From an uncultured bacterium (GTDB taxonomy: Bacteria > Nitrospirota > Thermodesulfovibrionia > Thermodesulfovibrionales > Thermodesulfovibrionaceae), in assembly GCA_937998865.1 (NCBI GenBank), contig CALLBR010000007.1, positions 1-45,928 on the forward strand: DNA of 45,928 nucleotides. The letters are read 5' to 3'. Each line of letters opens with the position of its first letter. The first letter of the stretch is position 1. The translations under genes were made by a program, and so were the position numbers. Below the pieces are notes generated by a model. That model was given only the letters and a program-made list of their open reading frames with translations, was not told the DNA's origin and ran no database searches. Of this stretch, positions 10,004 through 25,023 are shown piece after piece.

Positions 10004-10482
10004 AGGCTCTTTTGCTCTCATCAAAACATAAAAGAATAAGGAGATCTTATCCTTTTGTACCAGTTAAACAGCCAGAGAACCTTAGAGGAAAACTGGAAGT
10101 TTTAGCTAACAGATGTATTGGCTGTGGCAGTTGTGTGAGAACCTGCCCATCAAGACTTATAAAGATGGAAGATTTAGGAAATGAAAGGCTTTTAACTTTT
10201 TCTTCAGGTAGATGTATTTATTGCGGAAGATGTGCTGCTGCTTGCCCAGAGAAAGCTATACAGATTACCAATAAATTTGAGCTTGCCACAGAAAATAAAA
10301 AAGACCTTGAATTAGTGATTAAATTAAAAATGGCTGAGTGTATAGTATGTGGAAAGCCCTTTATGGTGGAAAACATGTTAAATAAGCTAATAGAAAAATT
10401 AGAGCAAAAAAGCGAAGAAGAGATTAGAAAACTAAAAATGTGTTCTGAATGTAAAAGAAAATTACAGGATAAAAAAGGCTAA
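9985..10482 (+). CDS. hyfH: Hydrogenase 2x[4Fe-4S] ferredoxin subunit (HyfH/HycF-like)
   Basis: A 165-residue NuoI-like electron-transfer subunit. Two classical clusters are seen: Cys44-47-50-54 (CIGCGSCVRTCP) and Cys77-80-83-87 (CIYCGRCAAACP). A second part has two extra CxxC pairs (119/122 and 153/156) that could bind zinc or another cluster, as in the C-terminal tails of HycF-type proteins. It would carry electrons between the small subunit and a soluble partner. The ATG overlaps the end of hyfG by 19 nt, implying translational coupling. A membrane antiporter gene follows after 3 nt. Confidence 0.93.
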   Translation: MLKSKIKALLLSSKHKRIRRSYPFVPVKQPENLRGKLEVLANRCIGCGSCVRTCPSRLIKMEDLGNERLLTFSSGRCIYCGRCAAACPEKAIQITNKFELATENKKDLELVIKLKMAECIVCGKPFMVENMLNKLIEKLEQKSEEEIRKLKMCSECKRKLQDKKG

Positions 10483-10485
10483 GTT

Positions 10486-11934
10486 ATGGAAAGTCTTTTA
10501 ATTACATTACTCATACCTTTTATAGGTGCTTTTGTTTGCCTCTTTCTTAGAGAGAAAGTCTCAGGATTTTTTGCCTCTTTTTTTGCCTTTATTACTCTAT
10601 ACTTTAGTTGCTTGAATATATTGTCTCCTAAAAATATAGAATTTCCTTTTCCCTTTTTCCATTGGCTTTCTTTGGGTCTTAATTTTTCTTTACAGAATGA
10701 TGCTTTAACTTCCCTTATGCTTCTTTTAATTACATTTGTAGGTTTTTTTGTGATCTTGTATTCCCTCGGATATATGTCACCTCAAAACAAAGACCATCCC
10801 TTTTATAGCCCTTACGGAGGATATTATTTTCTTATGCTTCTTTTTATTGGAGCCATGATTGGAGTTGTAACAGCAAAGAATTTTCTCCAATTATTTTTCT
10901 TTTGGGAAATTACCACTTTATGTTCTTGGGCATTGATTTCCTATACAAAAGAAAAGAAGGCACTTTTTTCAGGATTGAAAGCCTTTATAATGACTCATAT
11001 AGGAGGCTTAGGCTTTTTAATTGCTCTGGCATTCATGTACGGAGAGGCTAAATCTTTTGATTTTAATGTTTTTAATTATCTCTCCTCTTCTACAAAACTT
11101 ACAGTTTTAATTCTATTATTTTTTGCTGCCTCTGCAAAGGCTGCGCAGATTCCCCTTTTTACTTGGCTTCCTGATGCTATGGTTGCACCTACTCCTGTGA
11201 GTGCTTATTTGCATGCAGCTGCTATGGTTAAAGCAGGCGTATACTTAGTGGCAAGAATTTATGTTTCTAATCCTCTCTTAACTGAAGCTTTTGCTTTTCT
11301 TGTAGGGAGCATTGCCATTTTAACACTTACGATTTCTGTTATTTCATATTATTTCCAAGATGATCTAAAAAAACTTCTTGCTTACTCTACTATTGGACAC
11401 CTAGGATACATTCTTTTTGGAGTATCTTTGGGTATTTTGGGTTCCAAAACTGGTGGAATGGGAGGTTTGCTTCATATTATAAATCATGGTTTTGCTAAAG
11501 GATTACTATTTCTTACTGTTGGTGCTATTGCCTATTGTACAGGTTCCAAGAGTATAAGTGAATTAAGAGGATTGAATATTAAATTTCCTTTGTTTACCTT
11601 ATGTTTTCTTGCTGGCATGTTTGGAATAATTGGAGTTCCACCTTTTTCAGGCTTTTGGAGTAAATTTATGATTTTCTCTGGAGCTTTTGAGTTAAAAAAT
11701 ATCTATTTTATTCTTTTTGGAGTCCTTGCAATACTAGAGAGCATCCTTTCTTTTTGTTGGTATATTTTTGTAGGACATAAAGTTTTTTTTGGTTCCTCCT
11801 CTGAAAAAGTTTTGAATGCTCACTCTGAAGTTCCCTTCTCAATGAAATTTAGCTTAGTATTTCTTTTGATTTTAAGCCTCCTTTCTCCTATAATAGGCTA
11901 TTTCTTTATAAGAAATCTCTCAGGAGGTAACTAA
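10486..11934 (+). CDS. hyfD: Hydrogenase antiporter-like membrane subunit (HyfD-like)
   Basis: A 482-residue polytopic protein (about 14 helices) of the NuoL/M/N-Mrp antiporter family. The region from YYFLMLLFIGAM to SWALISY resembles E. coli HyfD as I recall it. Residues used for proton translocation in complex I are present: the helix 5 Glu (FFFWEITTLCSWALISY), the helix 7 Lys (ASAKAAQIPLFTWLPDA), the helix 8 HAAAMVKAG, and a Lys in the late helix FAKGLLFLT. It is likely one of three ion-pumping modules of the complex. It overlaps hyfB by one base (TAATG). Confidence 0.9.
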   Translation: MESLLITLLIPFIGAFVCLFLREKVSGFFASFFAFITLYFSCLNILSPKNIEFPFPFFHWLSLGLNFSLQNDALTSLMLLLITFVGFFVILYSLGYMSPQNKDHPFYSPYGGYYFLMLLFIGAMIGVVTAKNFLQLFFFWEITTLCSWALISYTKEKKALFSGLKAFIMTHIGGLGFLIALAFMYGEAKSFDFNVFNYLSSSTKLTVLILLFFAASAKAAQIPLFTWLPDAMVAPTPVSAYLHAAAMVKAGVYLVARIYVSNPLLTEAFAFLVGSIAILTLTISVISYYFQDDLKKLLAYSTIGHLGYILFGVSLGILGSKTGGMGGLLHIINHGFAKGLLFLTVGAIAYCTGSKSISELRGLNIKFPLFTLCFLAGMFGIIGVPPFSGFWSKFMIFSGAFELKNIYFILFGVLAILESILSFCWYIFVGHKVFFGSSSEKVLNAHSEVPFSMKFSLVFLLILSLLSPIIGYFFIRNLSGGN

Positions 11935-14012
11935 TGGAATTTTGGCTTTATTTTAAGGTGGCTACAGTTGCAATTTTAGGAGGTATTATTTTTACTTCTT
12001 TTATAAAGAATAAATCTATTAGCGGCCTTTTAGCTATAATTTCAACTTTTTTATTTGCCCTTTCTTTGTCTTACTTTTCAGTAAATATACTTTTGAGTAA
12101 AACCTCAATAGAATGGAAAATTTTTTCCTTAGCTCCTCTTATCAATTCTACCTTTTTACTGTATGTAGATTCCCTGTCTGCTTTATTTTTGATTATTATA
12201 GCCCTAGTTTCTCTCTGTGTGGTCCTTTTCTCTTGGAGATATTTGGAGGTCTACTCAGAGTATTCATCAAAAAGATTTTATCCTTTTTTGCTCTCCCTCT
12301 TTCTTTCAAGCATTGGACTTGTGGTAGTGAGAGATCTATTGTTTTTTATTGTTTTTTGGGAAGCTATGACATTTACCTCCTGGGTACTTGTGATCTTTGA
12401 CAGTCAAAAAAAGGAAGCCTTAAAGGGTGGAATTCAGTATTTTATCTCTACACACGTGGCTACAGCTTTTTTAATATTGGCAGCAGTAATAATGTATTCC
12501 TACAGTGAAGATTTTAATTTTGTGGAAATAAAAAAAAGTTTGACAAATATTTTTGAAAACAATTCCATGTTAGCTCATTTTCTTATCTTTTCTATAGTTA
12601 TTGCTTTTATAACAAAGGCTGGAATTCTTCCTTTTGGTTTCTGGTTACCCAATGCTTATCCCCAGCCCCCTTCTTCAGCCTCTTCCTTCTTTGGTGGTGT
12701 TATGTCAAAATTAGCAGTTTATGGACTTCTTAGATTTTTTCTCTCCCTAATACCTTTTTCTCAATACAGCCATACTTGGGGTTTTATAATTGCTCTATTG
12801 GGAGTTTTTTCTATTTTTGTGGGAACTATTGCAGCTCTTACTCAAGATGAGGCAAAAAGATTAATGTCTTTTCATGCTATTGGGCAGGTGGGATATATGT
12901 TACTTGGAATTGGCACTGGTATTTATTTTGTCACTTTTAGTCCTTTTTTAGGGATGATAGCTCTTACTGGAGGATTACTTCATGTTTTTAATAATTCCAT
13001 ATATAAAAGTCTTTTATTTCTCAATGCAGGAACAATTTTTTATAAAACAGGTACAACTGATTTAAACAAAGTCTCGGGATTAATTAAAATTATGCCTTTG
13101 ACAGCCATAGCAGCTATTGTAGGATCTCTCTCCATTGCAGGAGTTCCTCCCTTTAATGGTTTTATATCAAAACTCCTTATTTTTGAGTCATCTATTGGAG
13201 TTATGAAGGTTTCTGAATCTTTTTTCCTTATAAAATTTGCCTTTATAATTTTTGGAATTATTTCTGTCTTTATTTCAGCCATAACCTTAGCTTCTTTTCT
13301 TAAATTTGTTAACTCAGCCTTTATGGGTAAATTAAAAGCAGAGATTAAAAAGACAACAGCTATACCTAGTAGCATGAATATTCCTCAAATTATCCTGGCT
13401 GGAGTCTGTTTATTTACAGGTTTATTTCCCTTTATTACCTTAGAGTTTACCTACCATGCTTTGTCCTCAGCATCAGAATTAACACTACCATCTTTTTCAT
13501 CTGTTTTTTCATTAAGTATTGCAGGCTTTGGTCTTAATTTCTGCCAAAATTGTATTGAAACAGGTGTTTGGTTTCCTATCTTTGTAATTCTTTCGGTCCT
13601 TATTCTTTCATTAGTAATCTTTTGCTTTGAAAAATATGCCAATGCCCCAAAAAGAGAAGTGGAAACTTGGTATGGTGGTAAAGAGCATTCACCAGAGGAA
13701 GTAGCATACACTGGCCATAGTTTTTATCAACCTTTTAAGGAATTGGTAAGCTTTAAGATTTTTAATATTCAGTTTAGAGGCTTTTATCCTGTGGAATTAC
13801 CCCCTATGAAATTTTCCTTTCCTTCAAGCTTAAAAAAAATTATTCAGCCTGACGAATGGTTTTACTATCCTTTCATAGAGAAAATCGTGAGAATTTTTGA
13901 TTTATTGTATAGTCATTATGAAAATTTAAAAGAAAACTATATGGCGTGGCTTGTTGTAGGAGGAATTATAGTAATGTTTTTTCTTTTCTCCATAGCTGGA
14001 GGAATAATATGA
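11934..14012 (+). CDS. hyfB: Hydrogenase antiporter-like membrane subunit (HyfB-like)
   Basis: The largest membrane subunit, 692 residues, close to the length of E. coli HyfB. The antiporter core holds VFWEAMTFTSWVLVIF (Glu), ITKAGILPFGFWLPNAYP (Lys), a late SIYKSLLFLNAG (Lys) and FISKLLIF. After the core is an extension with ETWYGGKEHSPEEVAYTGHS, typical of HyfB/HycC, then a final membrane helix. Conservation of the pump residues argues for a functional ion channel rather than a structural relic. The stop overlaps hyfC as ATGA. Confidence 0.92.
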   Translation: MEFWLYFKVATVAILGGIIFTSFIKNKSISGLLAIISTFLFALSLSYFSVNILLSKTSIEWKIFSLAPLINSTFLLYVDSLSALFLIIIALVSLCVVLFSWRYLEVYSEYSSKRFYPFLLSLFLSSIGLVVVRDLLFFIVFWEAMTFTSWVLVIFDSQKKEALKGGIQYFISTHVATAFLILAAVIMYSYSEDFNFVEIKKSLTNIFENNSMLAHFLIFSIVIAFITKAGILPFGFWLPNAYPQPPSSASSFFGGVMSKLAVYGLLRFFLSLIPFSQYSHTWGFIIALLGVFSIFVGTIAALTQDEAKRLMSFHAIGQVGYMLLGIGTGIYFVTFSPFLGMIALTGGLLHVFNNSIYKSLLFLNAGTIFYKTGTTDLNKVSGLIKIMPLTAIAAIVGSLSIAGVPPFNGFISKLLIFESSIGVMKVSESFFLIKFAFIIFGIISVFISAITLASFLKFVNSAFMGKLKAEIKKTTAIPSSMNIPQIILAGVCLFTGLFPFITLEFTYHALSSASELTLPSFSSVFSLSIAGFGLNFCQNCIETGVWFPIFVILSVLILSLVIFCFEKYANAPKREVETWYGGKEHSPEEVAYTGHSFYQPFKELVSFKIFNIQFRGFYPVELPPMKFSFPSSLKKIIQPDEWFYYPFIEKIVRIFDLLYSHYENLKENYMAWLVVGGIIVMFFLFSIAGGII

Positions 14013-14923
14013 GTTTAGGATGGTTAATATCTTCCTGTCTTGTTAATATATTTATTGTCTTGTTTTTATCACCCTTTTTTGACGGATTTACCAGAAAAAT
14101 TAGAGCATTAATTCAAAGCCGAGTAGGTCCACCTCCTTTACAATCCTACTATGATATTTTAAAGCTCATGGGAAAGGAAGATCTTAAATCTACTATTAAT
14201 CCACTTTTCAGGATTTCTCCCTATTTATCAGTAATTAGCCTTGGAATAGCATCTCTTCTTATACCTATTACTGATTTTAAACCGCCCTTTAATTTTTGGG
14301 GTGATATTTTTCTTTTTATCTACATAATTACTGTAGTGGGAATAGCTATAATTATTACTGCTTCTGCTTCAGAAAATCCCTTTGCTTATGTGGGAGCTTC
14401 CCGGAAAATGATGTTGCACCTTTCAGTAGAACCAATACTTGCTATTGCCTTAATAACAGGAGCTATAAATGCAGGATCCTTTAAAATTGGAGATATAGTA
14501 TCTTGGTATTATTCAAACGGTCCTAATGTTTCTATGCTTTTAGCTACAGTGTGTGTGTTTCTCTCTCTTCAAGCATTAATTGGCAAAATTCCCTTTGATA
14601 TATCAGAAGCTGAACAGGAAATTGCTGAAGGTGTCCTCATTGAGTTAAGTGGTCCTAAATATGCTTGTGTAAAATGGGCAAATATGTCCAGACAGGTATT
14701 ATTCTGTTTAGTGTTTTCACAAATTTTTATACCCTGGCCCATGACAGAAATTTTCTTCGTAAACATTTTAATTTGCCTTATTAAAGTTACCATAGTAATC
14801 CTTATAAGCACTCTCATTGAGGCTTTAAATCCTCGGTTAAGAATTGACCAAGCCTTAAAGTATAATCTAACTTTAGCCTTTTTTTCTATTACAGCAATAT
14901 TTTTAGCTCTCTTAGGAGTGTGA
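14009..14923 (+). CDS. hyfC: Hydrogenase NuoH-like membrane subunit (HyfC-like)
   Basis: A 304-residue NuoH-type protein that anchors the hydrophilic arm to the membrane. Signature segments are FFDGFTRKIRALIQSRVGPP near the N-terminus and PFDISEAEQEIAEGVLIELSG in the middle, the acidic loop facing the active-site module. The start is placed at ATG 14009 because an in-frame open stretch beginning at 13946 would overlap hyfB, whereas 14009 has GGAGGA 5 nt upstream, gives the ATGA overlap with the hyfB stop, and begins with the first membrane helix. Confidence 0.93.
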   Translation: MSLGWLISSCLVNIFIVLFLSPFFDGFTRKIRALIQSRVGPPPLQSYYDILKLMGKEDLKSTINPLFRISPYLSVISLGIASLLIPITDFKPPFNFWGDIFLFIYIITVVGIAIIITASASENPFAYVGASRKMMLHLSVEPILAIALITGAINAGSFKIGDIVSWYYSNGPNVSMLLATVCVFLSLQALIGKIPFDISEAEQEIAEGVLIELSGPKYACVKWANMSRQVLFCLVFSQIFIPWPMTEIFFVNILICLIKVTIVILISTLIEALNPRLRIDQALKYNLTLAFFSITAIFLALLGV

Positions 14924-14924
14924 A

Positions 14925-15551
14925 ATGGAGGTAATTTACATTATTTTTCTATTCTTTACTTTTGTTGCTGGCGAATCAAGAAGTCTTAAATTTGCCTCTT
15001 ATAGTCTAATACCGCAAGGTTTACTAATTTTTTTATCACTTATAATTGCGGGTTATATAAACAATCACCCTAATTTTTACATAATAGCTGTTGTTGATCT
15101 CTTAGTTAGAGCCCTTTTAATGCCTGCCTCTTTAATAATTCTTTTGAGAGTCAGATTTCAAAGAGAGGAAAAACCTGCCATTATTCATCCTCTCTCTATA
15201 GCCTTATCAATAGTACTTCTTTCTGTAGGGTATAAGTTTATTGATACAATCAAAATTATGAACTTCCCAAATACACTCTCTTTTTTTACTGCAGGAGCTA
15301 CTGCATTTATATACGGAATGTTTTTATTCCTCTCAAAAAGGGACATGATTAAGATGATAATAAGCTTTTTTATCATAGAAAACGGTATCCATCTTATTCT
15401 ACTTAGTATGCTTCCAAATATGGGCAAAGCTGTGGAATTTGGTCTTACCATTAATTTTATTGTGGCAGTAGGATTTTTTATCTATATAACAACGAAATTC
15501 AATTTGTTAAGTGTAAGGGAGCTTATAAAAAAAATTAAAAGGGAAAGTTAG
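14925..15551 (+). CDS. hyfE: Hydrogenase small membrane subunit (HyfE-like)
   Basis: A 208-residue membrane protein with about six helices, starting one nucleotide after the hyfC stop. HyfE proteins (E. coli 216 residues) are NuoK-related in their C-terminal half. The segment SKRDMIKMIISFFIIENGIH, with acidic and basic residues inside a helix, matches the buried Glu/Asp pattern of NuoK. It connects the NuoH-like subunit to the antiporter modules. Assignment rests on order in the operon, length and this segment. Confidence 0.88.
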   Translation: MEVIYIIFLFFTFVAGESRSLKFASYSLIPQGLLIFLSLIIAGYINNHPNFYIIAVVDLLVRALLMPASLIILLRVRFQREEKPAIIHPLSIALSIVLLSVGYKFIDTIKIMNFPNTLSFFTAGATAFIYGMFLFLSKRDMIKMIISFFIIENGIHLILLSMLPNMGKAVEFGLTINFIVAVGFFIYITTKFNLLSVRELIKKIKRES

Positions 15552-15577
15552 GCTTTAATTTTGGAGGTAAAGGGGGA

Positions 15578-17038
15578 ATGAATTTTGATAATTTTATCTA
15601 CTGCCTAAGCTTTGTAGCACCTTTAGTGATAGGAATAATAATTTTTGTTCTTAGAGGTAATTTAAAGTTAAGTGCAGCTTTATCAATAATTTCAGTTTCT
15701 ATAGCTATTTTTTCCACATACAAAATTTGGCAGAAAATCAGCCAAGAGGGCTTAAAGTATTTGCAGCCCCATAAACTTTTTTATATAGACGGTTTCAGTA
15801 TTTTAATGCAATTCATGGTAGAATTCGTTAGTATTTTTGTTATTTTATTTTCTTTAAAAGAAATTTCAAAACTTTATAGCCATAGAAATGATAAATTCCA
15901 CGCTTATTTTTCAATTTTGATGTTTTCTTTAGGTTTCATGAATTTGGCATTTTCCCTTGACAATCTTTTTTTCCTATATATACCTTTTGAATTGAGTAGT
16001 ATCTTTGTGGTTTATTTGATTTCTTTCAATTTGGATAAAAATTCTCTCAGGGCTGGATTTATTTATCTTCTTATGGTTAATGTAGGAATTCTCTTTAGCT
16101 TGCTTGGTATCGTCCTAATTAATTACCATACAGGAACAGAAGTAACCATTAGTAATATAAGCCAGAGTATTACATTTCTTAATAAAAATATGGCTCTTTT
16201 ATGCGCTGCTTTTTTTATAATTGGCTTTTTCACAAAAGCTGGACTCCTTCCTTTTCATCTTTGGTTACCTCCAGCCTATGCTGAAGCACCCTCAGCAATA
16301 ACAGTTTTCCTTGCAGGAGCTGTAACAAAGATGGGATTTTATGGATTGGTTAGAACTGTCACAGTTTTTGCTTTTAACATGGAGGAGGTAAAAATTTTAG
16401 TCCTCCTTCTGTCCTCCTTAAGTATTTTTTTAGGAGCAATCTTAGCTTTTAATCAAAAGGATATTAAAAAGCTCATTGCTTACTGTAGTATTAGTGAGAT
16501 GGGATTTATAGCCTCAGCACTTATTTTGGATAGTTACACTGCAAAATTTGCAGGATTATTTCATCTTTTCAATCACACCTTAATGAAAGGAGCTTTATTT
16601 TTTGCAGCTGGAGCACTAATTTATCTTTATGGAAGCAGAAAAATAGAAGAGATAAGAGCTTTTCATCCTAAGGCACCTGCCATCATGATAACTTTTTTCA
16701 TAGGAGCTTTAGCAGTTGGAGGAATGCCTCCTTTTAGCAGTTTTTTAAGTTCCCTTTCAATAATTTTTGCCCTTGTGGATGAAAAATTTGTAGGGGTTGC
16801 ATTTATAATGTCTCTTTCAGGTTTAATAAGTCTTCTGGCTCTTTTAAGGTCAGTTATATCAATTTTTTGGTTAAGAGAGGAAAACCATACAGCTAACAAT
16901 AATGTTTCCCTACCAGTCATATTAGTAATTTGTGCCCTATTTTTTTCTATAGTACTTATTGCTCTGGGAATTTATCCTGAATTTCTTCATAACCTTTTTC
17001 ATAGAGCTACTCTGGCAATTATTAACATAAATCATTAA
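15578..17038 (+). CDS. hyfF: Hydrogenase antiporter-like membrane subunit (HyfF-like)
   Basis: The third antiporter homologue, 486 residues, about 14 helices. Pump residues are again kept: LYIPFELSSIFVVYL (Glu), FFTKAGLLPFHLWLPPAYAE (Lys) and HTLMKGALFFAAG (Lys). Position before the small subunit and the PFEL form of the Glu motif fit HyfF. Two GGAGG-like sites precede the ATG. With HyfB and HyfD it gives three potential ion-translocating modules, more than the single one in formate hydrogenlyase-1. A 26-bp gap separates it from hyfE, the largest in the operon. Confidence 0.9.
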   Translation: MNFDNFIYCLSFVAPLVIGIIIFVLRGNLKLSAALSIISVSIAIFSTYKIWQKISQEGLKYLQPHKLFYIDGFSILMQFMVEFVSIFVILFSLKEISKLYSHRNDKFHAYFSILMFSLGFMNLAFSLDNLFFLYIPFELSSIFVVYLISFNLDKNSLRAGFIYLLMVNVGILFSLLGIVLINYHTGTEVTISNISQSITFLNKNMALLCAAFFIIGFFTKAGLLPFHLWLPPAYAEAPSAITVFLAGAVTKMGFYGLVRTVTVFAFNMEEVKILVLLLSSLSIFLGAILAFNQKDIKKLIAYCSISEMGFIASALILDSYTAKFAGLFHLFNHTLMKGALFFAAGALIYLYGSRKIEEIRAFHPKAPAIMITFFIGALAVGGMPPFSSFLSSLSIIFALVDEKFVGVAFIMSLSGLISLLALLRSVISIFWLREENHTANNNVSLPVILVICALFFSIVLIALGIYPEFLHNLFHRATLAIININH

Positions 17039-17049
17039 GGGAGGAAGAA

Positions 17050-17505
17050 GTGTCTTTACTAAGAAATTTAGCTCTAAAGACATTAAAAAAGTCAGTTTGG
17101 ATCTTCCATGTAAATACAGGAGCCTGTAATGGTTGTGACATAGAATTACTTGATATCCTCACTCCTTATTATGACATAGAAAGATTTGGTATGAAAGCTG
17201 TGAGCTCTCCCAGGCATGCTGATGCTTTAGTTATATCAGGTCCTGTTACTCGTCCCACGGTAGATTTTGTAAAAAGTGTTTATGAAGCTACTCCAGAGCC
17301 TAAAATTGTAATTGCCCTTGGTTCCTGTGCTACTGCTGGAGGAATATGGTTTGATAGCTACAATGTGGTGGGTGGAGTAGACAAAATAATTCCAGTGAAT
17401 CTCTATATTCCTGGATGCCCTCCGCGGCCTGAGGCTATTTTGTTTGGAATAGCTAAAGCTCTAGGAATATCAAAGGAAAGAATAAAACCCTTAGTGCAAG
17501 AATAA
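17050..17505 (+). CDS. hyfI: Hydrogenase small subunit (HyfI/HycG-like, NuoB-type)
   Basis: A 151-residue protein that binds the proximal [4Fe-4S] cluster and docks to the large subunit. Cluster ligands Cys26 and Cys29 (TGACNGCD), Cys93 (GSCATAGG) and Cys123 (PGCPPRP) are all present, the group 4 hydrogenase/NuoB pattern. The start is GTG at 17050, supported by GGGAGGAAG immediately upstream. It is shorter than E. coli HyfI (252 residues), with the C-terminal part ending soon after the PGCPPRPE helix, as in NuoB-sized relatives. Confidence 0.95.
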   Translation: MSLLRNLALKTLKKSVWIFHVNTGACNGCDIELLDILTPYYDIERFGMKAVSSPRHADALVISGPVTRPTVDFVKSVYEATPEPKIVIALGSCATAGGIWFDSYNVVGGVDKIIPVNLYIPGCPPRPEAILFGIAKALGISKERIKPLVQE

Positions 17506-17506
17506 A

Positions 17507-17974
17507 TTGAGTATTGAGGATTTTTTAAAAAATTTAAAGGGCAAAATAGTAATTGCTGGGATAGGGAATCCTCTTAGAGGAGATGATGCTGTAGGATCTT
17601 TTATTGCAAAATCATTAAGAGACAAAATAGATGCTATGGTTATTGATTGCGAAGATAGTCCTGAAAGATATCTTGGGAAGATAATAAAGTATGATCCCTG
17701 TACAGTTTTGCTCATTGATGCTATTGATATGAATTTAGAGGCTGGCTCTGTTATTTTTCTTGAAGGTAAAGATTTAGAGGTAAGGAAGATTTACAGTCAT
17801 AATCCCTCTTTAAAGCTTCATGTCCATTTTGTAAGCAAAAATATAAATGCCCGAATATATATTCTAGGAATTCAGCCAGAGTCAACAAAATTAGGCAGCC
17901 CCCTCAGTAAAAAAGTTTTAGAGACAGCAGAGATTTTAATAAATCTTCTAAGGCTTCATCTCAATGCAAAATAG
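17507..17974 (+). CDS. Hydrogenase maturation protease (HycI/HyaD family)
   Basis: A 155-residue endopeptidase of the HycI/HybD type. The conserved IAGIGNPLRGDDAVG (residues 16-30) carries a nickel-sensing Asp, LLIDAIDM a second Asp, and HVHF the His. It would remove the 26-residue tail of the large subunit after nickel insertion, so its place as last gene of the operon fits. The start is TTG at 17507, one base after the hyfI stop, with no strong ribosome site; translational coupling is likely. Its last 14 bp overlap the end of the convergent hmcC-like gene. Confidence 0.92.
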   Translation: MSIEDFLKNLKGKIVIAGIGNPLRGDDAVGSFIAKSLRDKIDAMVIDCEDSPERYLGKIIKYDPCTVLLIDAIDMNLEAGSVIFLEGKDLEVRKIYSHNPSLKLHVHFVSKNINARIYILGIQPESTKLGSPLSKKVLETAEILINLLRLHLNAK

Positions 17975-19142
17975 CCATTCTCCTTACGATGAATCGATAG
18001 AATAAAATTATAAGAGTCACAATACCTAAGGATAAAGAAATCTCCATCCAAGTGGGATAATATTTTTCTTTAAAGGGAATGTACCAGTTATAGGCTATTA
18101 AAGAAACATTGAACCTGTTAAGAAGTACTCCAAGGGCAACAATGAAGGCTGATACTCTTACCACTGAAGCTTTTTTTAGCTTAATGGAGAAAATTAGAAG
18201 CATGATAGGGATAAATACAAATCCCACATTTTCAAAAAGGTAGAGATAGCCATAGGAGGTAAAAAGATAATGCCAGTTATCATAATGGGCTAAGTCTAAT
18301 AGTTTAAGAAGTAGGTAAAGAATTAAAACAATAGCCAAAGCCTTACCAAGTCCAAGAGTTTTGCTTTCAAATTCGGCTTTTTGAAAGTTTTTAATTCTGT
18401 CTATGAAAAATTTGTGAGAAAGGGTGCTCTCTATGATTACCATGGATATTCCAGCAAAGATAGCTGAAATAAGGAAAAATAGAGGAAGTAATGAAGAATA
18501 CCAAAGAGGATGAATTTTAGTCTTTGCCACTAAGAATAATCCTCCTAAGGCAGATTGATGACCACCAGCTATAATCACTCCAAATACCGTTGCCCAAATT
18601 CCAAATTTGGAAAATATCTCTTTCAGTCTCTCTTTCCCTAACCATTCAAAAAAAGAAGGTGACCATTCGATTAGACAAATGAGAATGTACAGAAAGAAAT
18701 GCCAAGCAATTAAAAATAATATAGAGTCTAAACCCCAAGACCATCCAATTACATAAAAGACTCTGTAGTATCTACCAAGATCAAACATTAAAGCAAAGAC
18801 AGCAAAAATATATCCAAGGAGACTTGATAGCACAGCAGGTTTTGCAAAATTTTTGTAATCTTTTATCCCGAAAAGATAAACTGTGGTTGCTACTGTTAGT
18901 CCTGGAGCTGCCAGAGCAATACCTACAAGGATATCAAAGCTTATCCAAAGCCCCCAAGGATAGGTATCTGAAAGATTTGTAGCAGGTCCGAGTCCATAAA
19001 AAAGCCTGTAAGCCATAGAGTAGAAGGAAAAGGAAAGAATAATTAAGGCAATAAAATTCCATAAAGTTGCATGGCTTTTCAAGTATTCCTTAAGGCTCAT
19101 TCCTAAAAATATCTTTTCCCTAAGAAAGCTTCCTTCTTTCAT
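17961..19142 (-). CDS. hmcC: NrfD/HybB-family integral membrane subunit (HmcC-like)
   Basis: A 393-residue polytopic quinone-binding-type subunit with about 10 hydrophobic helices. Features of the family are PWGLWISFDILVGIALAAPG, MFDLGRYYRVFYVIGWSWGL and AGGHQSALGGLFLVA near helix 6. NrfD proteins interact with menaquinone and with a ferredoxin-like partner, here the gene just upstream (1-nt gap). In Desulfovibrio, HmcC plays this role in the Hmc complex. It is the final gene of the seven-gene minus-strand operon, and its stop overlaps the convergent protease gene, leaving no room for a terminator between them. Confidence 0.88.
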   Translation of the reverse strand: MKEGSFLREKIFLGMSLKEYLKSHATLWNFIALIILSFSFYSMAYRLFYGLGPATNLSDTYPWGLWISFDILVGIALAAPGLTVATTVYLFGIKDYKNFAKPAVLSSLLGYIFAVFALMFDLGRYYRVFYVIGWSWGLDSILFLIAWHFFLYILICLIEWSPSFFEWLGKERLKEIFSKFGIWATVFGVIIAGGHQSALGGLFLVAKTKIHPLWYSSLLPLFFLISAIFAGISMVIIESTLSHKFFIDRIKNFQKAEFESKTLGLGKALAIVLILYLLLKLLDLAHYDNWHYLFTSYGYLYLFENVGFVFIPIMLLIFSIKLKKASVVRVSAFIVALGVLLNRFNVSLIAYNWYIPFKEKYYPTWMEISLSLGIVTLIILFYRFIVRRMAILH

Positions 19143-19143
19143 A

Positions 19144-20097
19144 TCACCCTTTTTTACTCTTGGATATCATGTAATAGGCAGTCCAGACTAAAGGAGCTGC
19201 AGCAACTATTTCAAGAACCTTTACAGTGAAGAGAAAATTTTTACTTAATTGTGGAATAGGTGTTTTGTCAAGCTTTGGGAATCCTAATTTTTCAAAGTCT
19301 GTACCCGATATGTAAAGCCAGCTTGTTCCTCCAGCTTCATATTCCCCGTAAATGTGTTGAATATACCTTCCTGAATTATTATGGATTCTTTCATAGGCAA
19401 GACGAAGAATTTCACTTCTCTTGCCAAAATTCATTGCATCAGCAGGGCATATTTCAACACAGGCAGGCAGTTTATTTTCAGTGATTCTGTCAAAACACAT
19501 GGTACACTTTGTAATCTGAGGAGTGAGAGGATCATAGTATTCATAAGCTGGAATGTCAAAAGGACAAGCAATCATGCAGTAGCGGCATCCTACACATAAA
19601 GAAGGATTATAAAGAACAGAACCATAGTCTGTTTTCTTGAAGGCATTAACAAAACAAGCACTAAGACAGGCTGGGTCGAGGCAGTGCATACATTGTTTTT
19701 TCACATAAATGGGATTTTTCCCCTCGTAAAACCTGTTTACTACTGTAAACTCTCCAGCATGAGTTCTTCGATTTTTATCAAAGACTGAGGGTTTTTTGTC
19801 CTTTGATTCTTCAAACTCCTTAAGAGGCTTGTTAGGATTTTTATTCCATTCATTACAAGCCCACTCACATCGACGACATCCTATGCATCTTGTTAAGTCT
19901 AAGAGAATTGCATAGGGTTCTTCTAAATTAATACCTCTGGCTTTAATAATCTCATATTTTTCCCAATTTTTTCTGTTTGCTTTGTTTCCTGTGGAGTATG
20001 AAGAAGGCTCTGAAAAAGCTTTCCCTCCCATTAAGGTTAAACCTGTGATGGTTAAAGCCTTTTTAAGAAAATCTCTTCTGTTCATCCTTAGTAGCAT
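19144..20097 (-). CDS. hmcB: Periplasmic four-cluster ferredoxin subunit with Tat signal (HmcB-like)
   Basis: A 317-residue iron-sulfur protein. A twin-arginine signal (NRRDFLKKALTITGL, Arg7-Arg8) sends it to the periplasm. Sixteen cysteines fall into four [4Fe-4S] sets: 71/74/77/81, 136/139/144/148, 168/171/174/178 and 198/201/213/217, with interdomain pairing typical of HmcB/DsrO/HybA. A hydrophobic segment near 285-305 may anchor the C-terminus. It should pass electrons between the multihaem cytochrome and the NrfD-like subunit. The start could also be Met5, which directly precedes the RR motif. It overlaps the small HmcD-like ORF by 10 nt. Confidence 0.92.
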   Translation of the reverse strand: MLLRMNRRDFLKKALTITGLTLMGGKAFSEPSSYSTGNKANRKNWEKYEIIKARGINLEEPYAILLDLTRCIGCRRCEWACNEWNKNPNKPLKEFEESKDKKPSVFDKNRRTHAGEFTVVNRFYEGKNPIYVKKQCMHCLDPACLSACFVNAFKKTDYGSVLYNPSLCVGCRYCMIACPFDIPAYEYYDPLTPQITKCTMCFDRITENKLPACVEICPADAMNFGKRSEILRLAYERIHNNSGRYIQHIYGEYEAGGTSWLYISGTDFEKLGFPKLDKTPIPQLSKNFLFTVKVLEIVAAAPLVWTAYYMISKSKKG

Positions 20098-20204
20098 CTT
20101 TTCTCTCTAAGCATATTTAAAATTAGAATAAAAAGAAAAATAGAAACTACAGCTACTACATACTCAAACCCGTGATTTGAAAAAAGTTGTTCAATTATAT
20201 ACAT
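20088..20204 (-). CDS. hmcD: 38-residue single-helix membrane protein (HmcD-like)
   Basis: A very short ORF tucked between the 16-haem cytochrome and the ferredoxin genes. It overlaps the cytochrome end by 14 nt and the hmcB start by 10 nt. It encodes an N-terminal MYIIEQLFSNHGFEY, then one strongly hydrophobic helix (VVAVVSIFLFILILNML), then a short basic tail. Desulfovibrio hmc operons encode a similarly tiny one-helix protein, HmcD, of unknown function. The length, hydrophobicity, tight overlaps and absence of any other HmcD candidate support the call; sequence similarity to HmcD cannot be judged by eye in so short a protein. Confidence 0.6.
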   Translation of the reverse strand: MYIIEQLFSNHGFEYVVAVVSIFLFILILNMLREKRCY

Positions 20205-21771
20205 TTTTTTTCACCTTTCTTTCGTGACAGTCTGTACATTTTTTCGGTTTTTCAAGTTTCAATGTTTCGTGGCATTTAATGCACATACCGTGATAAGCTG
20301 ATTGTAGTCTTGGCTTTCCTATGTCTTTGCTACTAAATTCAGAACCATGGCAGCTTATGCATAAGGGAGGTTTTTCTCTTTGAGCTTCTGCTTCCTCTTT
20401 GCTTTTATGATGACAACCTCTACAGATTGTATCATTGCTTCCATGGAAGTAATTAGCTAAATTACTTCTATTTGAAATTTCATTAAGTTTTTGAATCATC
20501 CTTAGATGGGGCATTTTTACTGCTTCAAAATCTTCCTCCAGGTGTTTAATTATAACTTCCTGTGGGACATTTTTGAAATTTTGTATTTTTGTTGAGATAA
20601 AATCTCTCTTTCCAGTATGACATTTATTACAAATCTCTGTGGGAGCAATCTGTATTTTTACAGGCGGGATAAAGTAATGACAGCTCATACACTCCACCTT
20701 TTCTTTGAGCTTTCCGTGGCAACCTTGACAACTTATAGTAGAACTAAGGGAATGATAGGCTGTTGCAATATTTACAAATCCGCCTTCTTCTTTACCTTTT
20801 AAATCATGGCAATCTTTGCATGCCCTGAGTGTTTCATGGTGACAAATTCTACAATTTTTGTTATTCATTTCATGAAAATCATGCCTAAAGGAAACACCTT
20901 TCATCTTTGCTCCTTCAATACTTAAAAAAGCTCTTTTTGGCTGGTTCACTTCTGGTCTTGAAACCTCTTTAAGTTCCTCTAATGCCCTGTATTTACCTGT
21001 GTGACATTCTGCACACACAATGGGTCCTCTGTCTTTGTCTTGATTTTTACTCTCTAAATGACAGTTGATGCATAGAAGATGAAAGGATTTTTCTAAATTT
21101 AAACCTTTTTGTTTTGCTACATTTACAATTTTGGTAAGTTCAGGACCTCTTTTCTTACTAAAGTCATGACAGTAGTAGCAACTTGCTTCAGTTCCTGGCT
21201 CATAGAATAGAGCAAGCTCTTTTCTGTCCTCTTTTAGATCATAAGAATGATGACAGAGGCTACAGTCTTTTTTATGTTTAGTGACATGTTTGTTATGCAA
21301 ATAAAAATCAAACTCTACCAAGGGATATTTTACTTGTCTATTTTCATTTTCTTTTTTATGGCAATCTCTACAGGAGAGAATCTCTGGTCCTGTCTTTTTC
21401 CTTTGGGCACTTAAATTTTTATGGCAATCTAAACATTTGGCGTGATAAAGATTTTTTATTTCCTCAGCTTCTTTTTTGTGAAGGTCCTCTATAAAATCAA
21501 AGGAGTACTCTCCATATTGATTCTTTTGATGGCATTCACTACATACACTCTCTGGTGTTTTATTAAGTATTTTTGCCATGGAGTCCACATGAAGCTTGTG
21601 TTTAAAAAGTATTCTACCATATTCAAGTTTTCTGAATTTTTCCACATGGGCTATGGAGACGATGTTTTCTTTATATAAAAATTCATAGGTGGATGAATTT
21701 TTAGAGTAAAGAAGTTTTATGCTTAATAGAGAAAGGCATATTAAAGTTGCTATGAAAATAAGTCTCTTCAT
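20191..21771 (-). CDS. hmcA: 16-haem c-type cytochrome (HmcA-like)
   Basis: A 526-residue exported multihaem cytochrome. An N-terminal hydrophobic signal (MKRLIFIATLICLSLLSIKL) precedes sixteen CxxCH haem-binding motifs, from Cys77 (CSECH) to Cys512 (CTDCH). Three are CxxCHH (CSLCHH, CRICHH, CRGCHH), and additional His residues between motifs can serve as distal ligands, suggesting repeated cytochrome c3-like units. Haem count and length agree with Desulfovibrio HmcA (16 haems, about 545 residues). It should take electrons from periplasmic hydrogenases or cytochromes and hand them to the membrane complex. ATGA overlap with the upstream hmcF-like gene. The signal may act as a membrane anchor, as no clear cleavage site is seen. 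Confidence 0.93.
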   Translation of the reverse strand: MKRLIFIATLICLSLLSIKLLYSKNSSTYEFLYKENIVSIAHVEKFRKLEYGRILFKHKLHVDSMAKILNKTPESVCSECHQKNQYGEYSFDFIEDLHKKEAEEIKNLYHAKCLDCHKNLSAQRKKTGPEILSCRDCHKKENENRQVKYPLVEFDFYLHNKHVTKHKKDCSLCHHSYDLKEDRKELALFYEPGTEASCYYCHDFSKKRGPELTKIVNVAKQKGLNLEKSFHLLCINCHLESKNQDKDRGPIVCAECHTGKYRALEELKEVSRPEVNQPKRAFLSIEGAKMKGVSFRHDFHEMNNKNCRICHHETLRACKDCHDLKGKEEGGFVNIATAYHSLSSTISCQGCHGKLKEKVECMSCHYFIPPVKIQIAPTEICNKCHTGKRDFISTKIQNFKNVPQEVIIKHLEEDFEAVKMPHLRMIQKLNEISNRSNLANYFHGSNDTICRGCHHKSKEEAEAQREKPPLCISCHGSEFSSKDIGKPRLQSAYHGMCIKCHETLKLEKPKKCTDCHERKVKKNVYN

Positions 21772-23093
21772 GGTTTCATCTCTTCAGGAATTTCCATTAA
21801 CTCCGCAATTAAGTCGGTAAGAAATTTAACATGAACACCCAGTTTATAGTATTCATTTAAATCCTCGATTCCCTTGTGACAAGTATGGCAAGCTGCAATT
21901 ACAATTTTTGCTCCTGTATTTTTTATTTGTTCTGCCTTAATTTTTCCACCTTCCATTCTTGCAGACTTCCAAACAGGTCCTGCATCTATCATTCCACCTC
22001 CAGCAGAACAACAGTAGTTATGATCATCTTTTGGAGTCATTTCAACTATGTTTTCACAAAGTTTAGAGACAATGTATCTTAGCATTTTGCCCATACCTCT
22101 GTATCTTACAATATTACAGGGATCTTGAATTGTAACTATTTCTTCAATTTTCTTAGCTATTTTTATTCTGCCTTCTTTTAATAATTCATAAAAGAACTGA
22201 ACTCCGTGGATATAGGGAATAGGAGATTCCTTCCAACCTAAGTATCTTACGCCTTCGTATATACCTGTTCTATAGGCATGTCCGCATTCACCCATAACAA
22301 TCTTTTTTACGTTCAATCTAAAGGCTACCTCGTAGTGCGTCCTTACAATTTTTCCCATGGTTTCAAAATCACAAGCATAAAAAGCTTTGTTTGTGTAATC
22401 CCATCCATCAGTGTCAGGGACGGTCCAGTCAATTTTTGCCACATTCATTATTTTTGCCATATTTGTTAAAAGCCCTGTCATGTATTTTGCCTCTAAACCA
22501 TGGGCAAGATATAAAACTTCTGCATTTTTTCTGCCAATAGGAATTTTTGCATCTTTAATTTCAGCCTTTAGTTCATCTTCAAGCCATTGAACTGTATCAA
22601 GCCATTCATCTTGTCTAAACCAAAGCATATTTGTAGTTTGCATATGACTCAATGCCTGATCCTGTATGTACTGAGGTACCGCACCAATAAGGCAACATAT
22701 TCTTCTTACAAGAGATAGAAGATAGGCTATGTCTATTCCAAAGGGACAAAACTGTACACAACGACGACATAGATTACACTCGGAAAAGACAATTCTTGCA
22801 TATTTCTTTATATCTTCTTTAGTCACCTTTCCCTTTTTGTTCAGAATATCCCATATTGTTTGTTTGACCTTTCCAGCTGGAGCATAGGTAGGATCCTTTT
22901 CATGAGACAGATAGTGATGACAAGAAGTAGTGCACATTCCGCATCTCATACAGGTTTCAACAAATACTTTTAGTCTTGCAGAGGCTTCTCTATTTAACAC
23001 CCAATCAATTGCTCTTTTTATTTTCTTTTCATCAACTCCCTTTAGAGTCTCATCAATTCCTATGTCTGTAATAGGTTTTCTCTTAAATTCCAT
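21768..23093 (-). CDS. hmcF: Cytoplasmic HdrD-like iron-sulfur protein with CCG domains (HmcF/TmcB-like)
   Basis: A 441-residue protein with two N-terminal [4Fe-4S] motifs, Cys48-51-54-58 (CMRCGMCTTSC) and Cys106-109-112-116 (CNLCRRCVQFCP), followed by cysteine-rich heterodisulfide-reductase-type regions. The second is clear: CNIVRYRG, then NYCCSAGGG and ACHTCHKG. The first is reduced to GECGHAYR. This is the plan of HmcF, TmcB, DsrK and HdrD. No signal peptide is present, so it acts at the cytoplasmic face, where such proteins are thought to reduce a disulfide or pass electrons on. GAGGTG ribosome site 5 nt before the ATG. Confidence 0.92.
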   Translation of the reverse strand: MEFKRKPITDIGIDETLKGVDEKKIKRAIDWVLNREASARLKVFVETCMRCGMCTTSCHHYLSHEKDPTYAPAGKVKQTIWDILNKKGKVTKEDIKKYARIVFSECNLCRRCVQFCPFGIDIAYLLSLVRRICCLIGAVPQYIQDQALSHMQTTNMLWFRQDEWLDTVQWLEDELKAEIKDAKIPIGRKNAEVLYLAHGLEAKYMTGLLTNMAKIMNVAKIDWTVPDTDGWDYTNKAFYACDFETMGKIVRTHYEVAFRLNVKKIVMGECGHAYRTGIYEGVRYLGWKESPIPYIHGVQFFYELLKEGRIKIAKKIEEIVTIQDPCNIVRYRGMGKMLRYIVSKLCENIVEMTPKDDHNYCCSAGGGMIDAGPVWKSARMEGGKIKAEQIKNTGAKIVIAACHTCHKGIEDLNEYYKLGVHVKFLTDLIAELMEIPEEMKP

Positions 23094-23101
23094 ATTTCAC
23101 C

Positions 23102-23779
23102 TCAGAAGTCTCTTGAATGCCTTACAGCTCCAAATTCACTACCTGTATGGGCTCTTGTAAAGAAAAAGAGAAACATATGACTCAATTTTGTAAAGGGAAT
23201 TGCCATAAGCATTATTTCACCACTCAGCATGTGTATTGTGAGCATGATTTTATAATCCAGTATGAGTTCATGATGAGCAAGAAAGCCTGTAATAAAGGGT
23301 AGTGCAACTAAAGTAAGTATAAGATAGTCAGAAGAAGAAGTTAGAAATCTAATATCACTCTGAAAGAGCCTTCGCAAAATGAGTAGAATAATACAAAAGA
23401 TAGTTATAAAAGTCATTCCATCAGCTAAGGACACTGGTAAGGTCCACCACCTAATTTTCCATGATTCATACCACAATTCCACATGACCTACTAAGAAGAG
23501 GGAAACAGAAATTAAACAGATGTGAAATAGGAAAGTTATAGCTGTAAACCAGGGATGTCTTCTCATACTAATAGAGCCATAGGGTATTAACCAACGAAAC
23601 AGAGATCTTAATGTGTAGCGAAGGCTTAAATAGGGATATACTATCTTTTCTTTTTTAGCCTCTCTTAAGGTTATGGCTATTCGATAAAAAATTCCTAAAA
23701 AAAACACCAAAAAAGCAAGCCATAGCATAGGACCCCTCAGGAAGGTATAAAGGGAGGGATCTTTAAAAAATTGTTCCAT
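23102..23779 (-). CDS. hmcE: b-type cytochrome membrane subunit (HmcE/TmcC/NarI-like)
   Basis: A 225-residue integral membrane protein with about five to six helices. Histidines placed in or near helices (FHICL, VGHVEL, FLAHHEL, TIHML, KLSHMF) can ligate two haems b, as in NarI-like subunits of the Hmc, Tmc and Dsr complexes. It pairs with the HdrD-like protein encoded next (8-nt gap) to carry electrons from the membrane to the cytoplasm. The start overlaps the stop of the tryptophan-rich protein gene by one base (TAATG). Confidence 0.88.
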   Translation of the reverse strand: MEQFFKDPSLYTFLRGPMLWLAFLVFFLGIFYRIAITLREAKKEKIVYPYLSLRYTLRSLFRWLIPYGSISMRRHPWFTAITFLFHICLISVSLFLVGHVELWYESWKIRWWTLPVSLADGMTFITIFCIILLILRRLFQSDIRFLTSSSDYLILTLVALPFITGFLAHHELILDYKIMLTIHMLSGEIMLMAIPFTKLSHMFLFFFTRAHTGSEFGAVRHSRDF

Positions 23780-25023
23780 TATTTTAATACCTCACTGAGA
23801 CTAAGAACTTTTCTAATGTATTTACCGTTCTTTATGCATCCAAAGAGAATTTTATCTCCATCAGGACTAAATTTGGGTTCCCATAACATATCAAAGGTTT
23901 CTTTTACTATTTTGCCATTTAAAACTAAAAAATATGTTCCTTCCTTTTCCGCCTTTGCTATGCAATAGTTTCCGTCAGGACTTAACTGGGGTGACCAAAT
24001 TCTATCAAATCCCCTATCCCAAGGCTTTCCATTAATGGCAACACTCCAAGTATTTCTATTTCTTATTACAGCACCGATTTTTTTGCCATCAGCACTAAAG
24101 AATGGTGGAAGTACGCAATGAGAAAAAGTTTCCTTCCAAGGATTACCATCTAATGCCACAGTCCATTTGCCAAACTCTGTAGCTACAACCGCGGCAATTC
24201 TACCATCAGGACTTACTCTTTGATGCCAAAGTTGAGTGAAATAAGGCCAGGAGACCTTACCATTTATGGCTAAAGTCCAACCTTTCTCCCTTTTCACTGG
24301 AACTGCTACATTGTCATTGTCAAGGAAAATTGGCTCCCAGGCATTTAAAAATATTTCATCCCAAGTTTTTCCATCTATGGCTACAGTAAATTCTTGCTGC
24401 GAAAGTCTTACAGAAGCTGCAATTTTTTTATTATCAGGGCTAAAACAAGCTCCGTAGATTGATATGAAATTTTTATCCCAGGGATTACCATCTGCGGCAA
24501 TAGTCCAAACACCTTTTTTAAAGCTAAAGATGTCAAGTAAGGGAGGATTTTCTACCCTAACATAGGAGGCAGCGTGTTTCCCATCATCTGAAAGAATAAG
24601 GTCTCTTGCATCAAAGAATAGAGTATCCCAAATTTTTCCATCTAAACAAACACCATAGGAATCACCTTTTTTTATGTTAAAGGCAATTGATTTACTCTCT
24701 TTGTCAGTTTTAAGATTCCAAGCATAATCAAAAGTCTCTTCCATCACTGTGTCATCTTTTGCCAGTGTCCACTCATAATTTCTCAGTGCAAGGCAGATTA
24801 CACTTCCAAGAGGAGTAATTTGAGGGAAACAAATACGTTCAAAGGTATTGTTCCAGGTTTCTCCATTAATGCAAAAGGTTTTCCCCTCTTGCACTTTTAC
24901 AATAGCTACAATTTTTTCAAAATCAGGACTTACTAAAATCTCCTCAGAGGAATTAAACTTTTCCTTCCATTCCTTCAGATTAGAAATGACCTTTTCCTTT
25001 GTATCCCAATCCCAACTGGTCAT
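23779..25023 (-). CDS. Tryptophan-rich beta-repeat protein (TmcD-like)
   Basis: A 414-residue protein built from about nine repeats of roughly 38-40 residues. A typical unit is GxWTVAxDGKxWDxxFxxxWxPxFSPDGxxIAAxV, visible from residue 50 to the end; it suggests a beta-propeller like WD40/PD40 proteins. No signal peptide or membrane helix is present, so a cytoplasmic location is likely. It heads the operon and is coupled to the b-type cytochrome gene. In Desulfovibrio, the Tmc complex has a tryptophan-rich subunit, TmcD, of unknown function, which is the nearest counterpart I know. The identification rests on composition and context, and a profile comparison would settle it. No Shine-Dalgarno; see the promoter next to the ATG. 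Confidence 0.72.
   Translation of the reverse strand: MTSWDWDTKEKVISNLKEWKEKFNSSEEILVSPDFEKIVAIVKVQEGKTFCINGETWNNTFERICFPQITPLGSVICLALRNYEWTLAKDDTVMEETFDYAWNLKTDKESKSIAFNIKKGDSYGVCLDGKIWDTLFFDARDLILSDDGKHAASYVRVENPPLLDIFSFKKGVWTIAADGNPWDKNFISIYGACFSPDNKKIAASVRLSQQEFTVAIDGKTWDEIFLNAWEPIFLDNDNVAVPVKREKGWTLAINGKVSWPYFTQLWHQRVSPDGRIAAVVATEFGKWTVALDGNPWKETFSHCVLPPFFSADGKKIGAVIRNRNTWSVAINGKPWDRGFDRIWSPQLSPDGNYCIAKAEKEGTYFLVLNGKIVKETFDMLWEPKFSPDGDKILFGCIKNGKYIRKVLSLSEVLK

Follow-up and report, generated by a model that had tools for sequence, protein, structure and literature searches.

A Tmc-type cytoplasmic module encoded together with an Hmc-type periplasmic module in an operon of Thermodesulfovibrio

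We describe a seven-gene operon from Thermodesulfovibrio (Nitrospirota), located in a 45,928-nucleotide stretch of DNA (assembly GCA_937998865.1, contig CALLBR010000007.1; hereafter the window), which quite likely encodes one transmembrane redox complex composed of the cytoplasmic module of Tmc (TmcB, TmcC and TmcD) and the periplasmic and quinone module of Hmc (HmcA, HmcB and HmcC). The host is a thermophilic sulfate reducer whose genome was assembled into 46 contigs (1.75 Mb, 99.93% completeness), and its TmcB shares 95% identity with that of the metagenome bin ‘N1_Bin’ and 83–86% with those of Thermodesulfovibrio species, the closest named relatives. The operon is read on the minus strand from position 25023 to 17961 in the order tmcD-tmcC-tmcB-hmcA-small open reading frame (ORF)-hmcB-hmcC, and its successive junctions measure -1, +8, -4, -14, -10 and +1 nt. 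A preliminary description, made from the letters of the window, had placed all of these genes correctly, with the cytoplasmic half first, a cytochrome with 16 CxxCH motifs and junctions that all overlap or span at most 8 nt; of its names, hmcE and hmcF for the second and third genes did not hold, and the HmcD likeness of the fifth is unproven. The features are as follows (TM, transmembrane):

tmcD, 23779..25023, minus strand: cytoplasmic tryptophan-rich beta-propeller protein, 414 aa
tmcC, 23102..23779, minus strand: di-haem cytochrome b membrane subunit, 225 aa, 5 predicted TM segments
tmcB, 21768..23093, minus strand: cytoplasmic [4Fe-4S] and CCG-domain subunit, 441 aa
hmcA, 20191..21771, minus strand: 16-haem periplasmic cytochrome c, 526 aa, hydrophobic N-terminal signal
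small ORF, 20088..20204, minus strand: 38 aa, single TM segment, detected by translation
hmcB, 19144..20097, minus strand: periplasmic four-cluster ferredoxin, 317 aa, twin-arginine signal, C-terminal TM segment
hmcC, 17961..19142, minus strand: NrfD-family membrane subunit, 393 aa, about 10–11 hydrophobic segments

Family assignment of the subunits

Families were assigned with the curated NCBIfam models and their equivalog bit-score cut-offs. The product of the first gene, suspected from the outset to resemble TmcD, passed the TmcD model with 446.5 bits (cut-off 440). A lack of kinship with TmcD would have refuted the preliminary description, and this outcome leaves it standing. Its AlphaFold model (pLDDT, the predicted local distance difference test, of 95.4) has an all-beta repeat fold, in which the strand count suggests eight blades; a profile search of the PDB matched WD-40 propellers, and Foldseek against the PDB retrieved generic beta-propellers and similar folds only, with a TM-score of at most 0.48 among the matches listed. 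No hydrophobic segment was found in TmcD, which is probably a docking or scaffold subunit. TmcC scored 276 bits on the TmcC model (cut-off 240, passed) versus 194 bits on HmcE (cut-off 275, failed). Four of its histidines (H86, H99, H183 and H201) are invariant in 32 of 32 aligned homologues, and the protein can thus hold two haems b.

TmcB scored 603.5 bits on its own model, below the cut-off of 735, versus 347 on HmcF (cut-off 750) and 172 on DsrK, and in a phylogenetic tree it was placed within the TmcB clade with 100/100 support, HmcF forming a separate clade. As a control we used a Desulfomicrobium locus (L132) in which tmcDCBA is followed by hmcABCDEF, and where TmcB (861 bits), HmcF (932) and TmcA (158) all exceed their cut-offs. 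There, TmcB and HmcF each score about 350 bits on the model of the other, and since the genuine TmcB reaches 353.5 bits on the HmcF model, the TmcB of the window (347) lies at the same distance from HmcF as does a genuine TmcB. Based on these model scores and trees, the second and third genes are tmcC and tmcB rather than hmcE and hmcF, and the claim that all six Hmc-type components are present cannot stand, as neither HmcE nor HmcF proper is encoded in the operon; nor is there a tetrahaem TmcA.

On the periplasmic side, HmcA carries exactly 16 CxxCH motifs, a number shared by 64 of 74 homologues from the same gene context; it passes the HmcA model (490 bits, cut-off 400) and has homologues of known structure in the 16-haem cytochromes 2e84, 1gws and 1z1n. 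The best model for HmcB, which starts with the twin-arginine sequence MNRRDFLKK and has 16 cysteines and one C-terminal TM segment, was HmcB (341 bits, under the cut-off of 420), and that for HmcC was HmcC (397 bits, under the cut-off of 550), ahead of HybB (246 bits) and QrcD (71 bits, cut-off 570). The names TmcB, HmcB and HmcC thus rest on best matches together with trees, because the scores fall under the cut-offs. The 38-aa ORF between hmcA and hmcB is kept in the genus, in another family of the same order (f10) and in Thermodesulfobacterium. It was considered as HmcD and not accepted as such: it had no match to the HmcD model, and related hybrid operons (L080, L082 and L094) instead encode a short HmcD-like peptide after hmcC, as in hmc of the Desulfovibrio type.

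The operon shares TmcB, TmcC and TmcD, in the D-C-B order of canonical tmc loci, with Tmc (TmcABCD) of Desulfovibrio, and differs from it in that TmcA is replaced by HmcA, HmcB, HmcC and the small TM ORF, a replacement that brings in an NrfD-type quinone subunit. With Hmc (HmcABCDEF) of Desulfovibrio vulgaris it has in common the 16-haem HmcA, the four-cluster HmcB and the NrfD-type HmcC, whereas TmcC and TmcB stand in place of HmcE and HmcF, TmcD is added, HmcD is unrecognisable and the cytoplasmic half comes first, unlike the order A-B-C-D-E-F of hmc. The logic of DsrMKJOP is the same, with a cytochrome b and a CCG subunit joined to a cytochrome c, a ferredoxin and an NrfD subunit, but here the dsr genes are located elsewhere in the genome (DsrK, 738.6 bits) and the TmcB of the window reaches only 172 bits as DsrK. 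A QrcD-type NrfD subunit, as in Qrc, is lacking from the operon, HmcC scoring 71 of 570 as QrcD.

Distribution and origin of the hybrid operon

A search with TmcD among 296 Nitrospirota genomes returned near-full-length matches in family f10 and, within the genus, in 10 of 10 further genomes searched; the matches in other Nitrospirota were weak and partial only. The order tmcD-tmcC-tmcB-hmcA-hmcB-hmcC was kept in every Thermodesulfovibrio genome examined that had a long enough contig. Across the genus the block is intact while the genes on both flanks vary, and the block genes therefore appear to work as one unit. In one Thermodesulfovibrio genome (L050 in G066), hmcA and tmcC are fragmented, either as pseudogenes or through sequencing errors, and some f10 genomes have additional partial copies of block genes.

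We gathered 80 named genome loci with an alignment of TmcB, and as the query was of the hybrid type, the proportions are biased towards hybrids. In 53 of the 80 loci, tmcB is directly followed by a 16-haem-type hmcA, and 16 have the canonical four-haem tmc, two of them with hmc as well. The hybrid loci, many of them from metagenome bins, are titled Nitrospirota, Thermodesulfobacteriota, Zixibacteria, Acidobacteria, Myxococcota and others. The clearest is a Zixibacteria locus (L080), which passes the cut-offs for TmcD (522.6 bits), TmcC (278.6), HmcA (542), HmcB (515) and HmcC (666), its TmcB lying just under (732.5 versus 735). Several variants were also observed. Hybrid-like operons in L070, L072, L073 and L076 have a cytochrome with 17 CxxCH motifs, and the NrfD subunit of L073 scores higher on HybB than on HmcC. 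L040, L109 and L188 have further partial or complete copies of tmcD, tmcC and tmcB near a full hybrid operon, which gives the impression of a Tmc module that duplicates by itself. The reverse mix occurs in L177 and L178, where an HmcF-side CCG protein and a cytochrome b are directly followed by a tetrahaem cytochrome; these two form a deep branch on the HmcF side.

In the TmcB tree with HmcF as an outgroup, the TmcB clade and the grouping of the window type with Thermodesulfobacterium each received 100/100 support, and canonical Tmc was nested among the hybrids, as it also was in a larger, quickly computed tree; the hybrids were united as one group in 0% of bootstrap trees. The TmcC tree was poorly resolved, with hybrids in more than one part. 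In the HmcC tree, Zixibacteria-type hybrids grouped with part of canonical HmcC (97/96), apart from the window type, the HybB outgroup being too distant (branch of 4.1), and the HmcA tree was computed without an outgroup, so no direction can be read from it. Enforcing a single hybrid clade cost 14.3 (TmcB) and 16.4 (HmcC) log units, with p values in the approximately unbiased (AU) test of 0.062 and 0.091, respectively. These data lean, though not decisively, towards an old hybrid or a repeated exchange of modules. A tentative scenario, to which we give a little less than even chances, is that tmcDCB-hmcABC(D) is the older, widespread form, from which canonical Tmc would have arisen by swapping HmcABC for the tetrahaem TmcA, and canonical Hmc by uniting HmcABCD with another pair of cytochrome b and CCG subunits (HmcEF).

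Another possible origin, which we regard as somewhat doubtful, is a late and single fusion, by which tmcA and hmcEF were lost from a tandem tmcDCBA-hmcABCDEF and the product then spread horizontally; this would be compatible with the function proposed below. Such tandems are known in Desulfomicrobium-type genomes (L132 and L175), the versions from Thermodesulfobacterium and Thermodesulfovibrio branch next to each other in the trees despite belonging to different phyla, and a single hybrid clade was not rejected by the AU tests. The position of canonical Tmc inside the hybrids in the HmcF-rooted tree and the lack of bootstrap trees uniting the latter speak against a late fusion, as does the affinity of the Zixibacteria-type HmcC to canonical HmcC rather than to the window type. 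A widespread complex with a Tmc inner and an Hmc outer half would be a concrete intermediate or a third type, and may help to explain the origin of both textbook complexes.

A probable single complex and its proposed role

The preliminary description had proposed a single complex with features of both Hmc and Tmc; this gains support and in a stronger form than claimed, as the whole cytoplasmic half is of the Tmc type, the physical association of the two halves being suggested by their conserved linkage. In such a complex, electrons from a soluble periplasmic hydrogenase or formate dehydrogenase would pass through tetrahaem cytochrome c3 to HmcA and, by what is known of the families, from there through the four Fe-S clusters of HmcB to a quinone site in HmcC. 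TmcC, with its two haems b, would form the path through the membrane, perhaps taking electrons back from menaquinol formed at HmcC, and hand electrons on to TmcB with its Fe-S clusters and CCG-type cluster. By analogy with DsrMKJOP, TmcB might then reduce a disulfide in the cytoplasm, for instance the trisulfide of DsrC. The hybrid would thereby combine both roles, with entry of c3 electrons at HmcA, possible use of quinone at HmcC and delivery to a cytoplasmic disulfide at TmcB. Mutants in Tmc of Desulfovibrio alaskensis show a role of that complex in hydrogen oxidation, and the authors propose a flow from c3 to DsrC.

Several points weigh against this reading. TmcB, HmcB and HmcC fall under the curated cut-offs, which probably reflect proteins of the Desulfovibrio type; the position of HmcD is unproven, the 38-aa ORF being a candidate at most; and the quinone loop and DsrC as an acceptor are analogies. 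It is improbable, in our estimate, that TmcBCD and HmcABC form two separate complexes that are merely co-transcribed. The modules are separate in Desulfovibrio-type genomes and sometimes encoded in tandem (L132 and L175; D. multivorans, PMC5109826), but each half of the hybrid would on its own be left without its partner (TmcBCD without TmcA, HmcABC without HmcEF), the order of the block is kept in many phyla and the block moves as a unit within the genus. That the operon is a plain Thermodesulfovibrio Hmc with rearranged gene order, its TmcB and TmcC being divergent HmcF and HmcE, is very improbable and was rejected on the basis of family scores and trees, since, although Hmc is the name given to it by Frank et al. 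(2016; PMC5165239) and Hmc models are the best match for HmcA, HmcB and HmcC, TmcB scores 603 bits versus 347 on the HmcF model (on which a genuine TmcB reaches 353.5 and a genuine HmcF 932), TmcC and TmcD pass the Tmc cut-offs, and the TmcB and HmcF clades are split at 100/100.

The rest of the genome was searched for another Hmc or Tmc and for Qrc. Only two NrfD proteins were found, HmcC and one encoded beside a DsrO-like gene and DsrK; judging by the assembly, Qrc is thus absent. The TmcB family is represented at full length by the TmcB of the window and two DsrK-like proteins only, and the one other class III cytochrome, a tetrahaem protein, failed the TmcA model (64.6 bits, cut-off 114). 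A hidden second Hmc, Tmc or Qrc was accordingly rejected on these searches with TmcB, NrfD and class III cytochromes; a missed copy is unlikely but possible, given the 46 contigs at 99.93% completeness. The genome also encodes the small and large subunits of a Tat-type (twin-arginine), periplasmic-type [NiFe] hydrogenase, without an adjoining membrane subunit. As neither Qrc nor a further Hmc or Tmc was detected, electrons from periplasmic hydrogenase and cytochrome c3 probably reach quinone and the cytoplasm by way of the hybrid complex. Two further loci were noted: the second DsrK-like protein (L059:9041-10642; 337 bits, cut-off 400) lies on another contig than the dsrK locus, and at L204:812-3847 the lone tetrahaem c3 is encoded side by side with a putative cytochrome b and a protein that has 17 CxxCH motifs, a possible further path for periplasmic electrons.

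In Thermodesulfovibrio sp. N1, Frank et al. list, for an ‘Hmc complex’ (THER_1440-1444), an NrfD protein, a periplasmic ferredoxin, a 16-haem cytochrome and a CCG ferredoxin, and propose that periplasmic electrons of such a kind end at this complex (PMC5165239). This is presumably the same operon as that of the window, although it is called Hmc there and, in the text consulted, the TmcC and TmcD genes are unnamed and Tmc is not mentioned. The annotation ‘Hmc’ thus conceals the Tmc half. No earlier account that links a Tmc-type inner half to Hmc was found in our literature search, which did not cover what is reportedly the main comparative survey of these complexes in sulfate reducers, that of Pereira and colleagues from 2011, and priority is uncertain. 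As a natural experiment, the hybrid could show which of the two halves determines the electron donor and which determines the acceptor. Apart from DsrMKJOP, it seems to be the sole NrfD-type entry for periplasmic electrons in Thermodesulfovibrio, and cultivable strains could therefore reveal its function without interference from Qrc or a separate Hmc or Tmc.

In-frame TGA codons in related genes and surroundings of the operon

In the tmcB genes of several relatives (L040, first copy, L041–L047, L051, L069, L109 and L188) an in-frame TGA occupies the site of Cys270 of the window (ECGH, which would become E-U-GH), and the same TGA is found in the HmcF-side relatives L177 and L178. Many of these tmcB genes have a stem-loop about 17 nt downstream of the TGA, and SelB was over its cut-off in 11 of 12 genomes tested. 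The TGA at the Cys270 position very likely encodes selenocysteine; the site is known in kind from a review, where an Fe-S oxidoreductase-like selenoprotein is listed with a UGH motif. L041 has a second in-frame TGA at the site of Cys402, replacing the first cysteine of CxxCH in the CCG domain, which could be either a second selenocysteine or a sequence error.

A scan of the operon revealed no terminator-like sites within it, and promoter-like sites were no commoner than in shuffled sequences. Upstream, a 218-nt gap separates it from a divergent DUF815 gene. Downstream, a hydrogenase-4-like gene cluster (8354-17974), which resembles complex I and group 4 hydrogenases, converges on the operon, and its end shares 14 nt with that of hmcC; this cluster also adjoins the operon in L056 and L057, and other neighbours are found in most of the genus.

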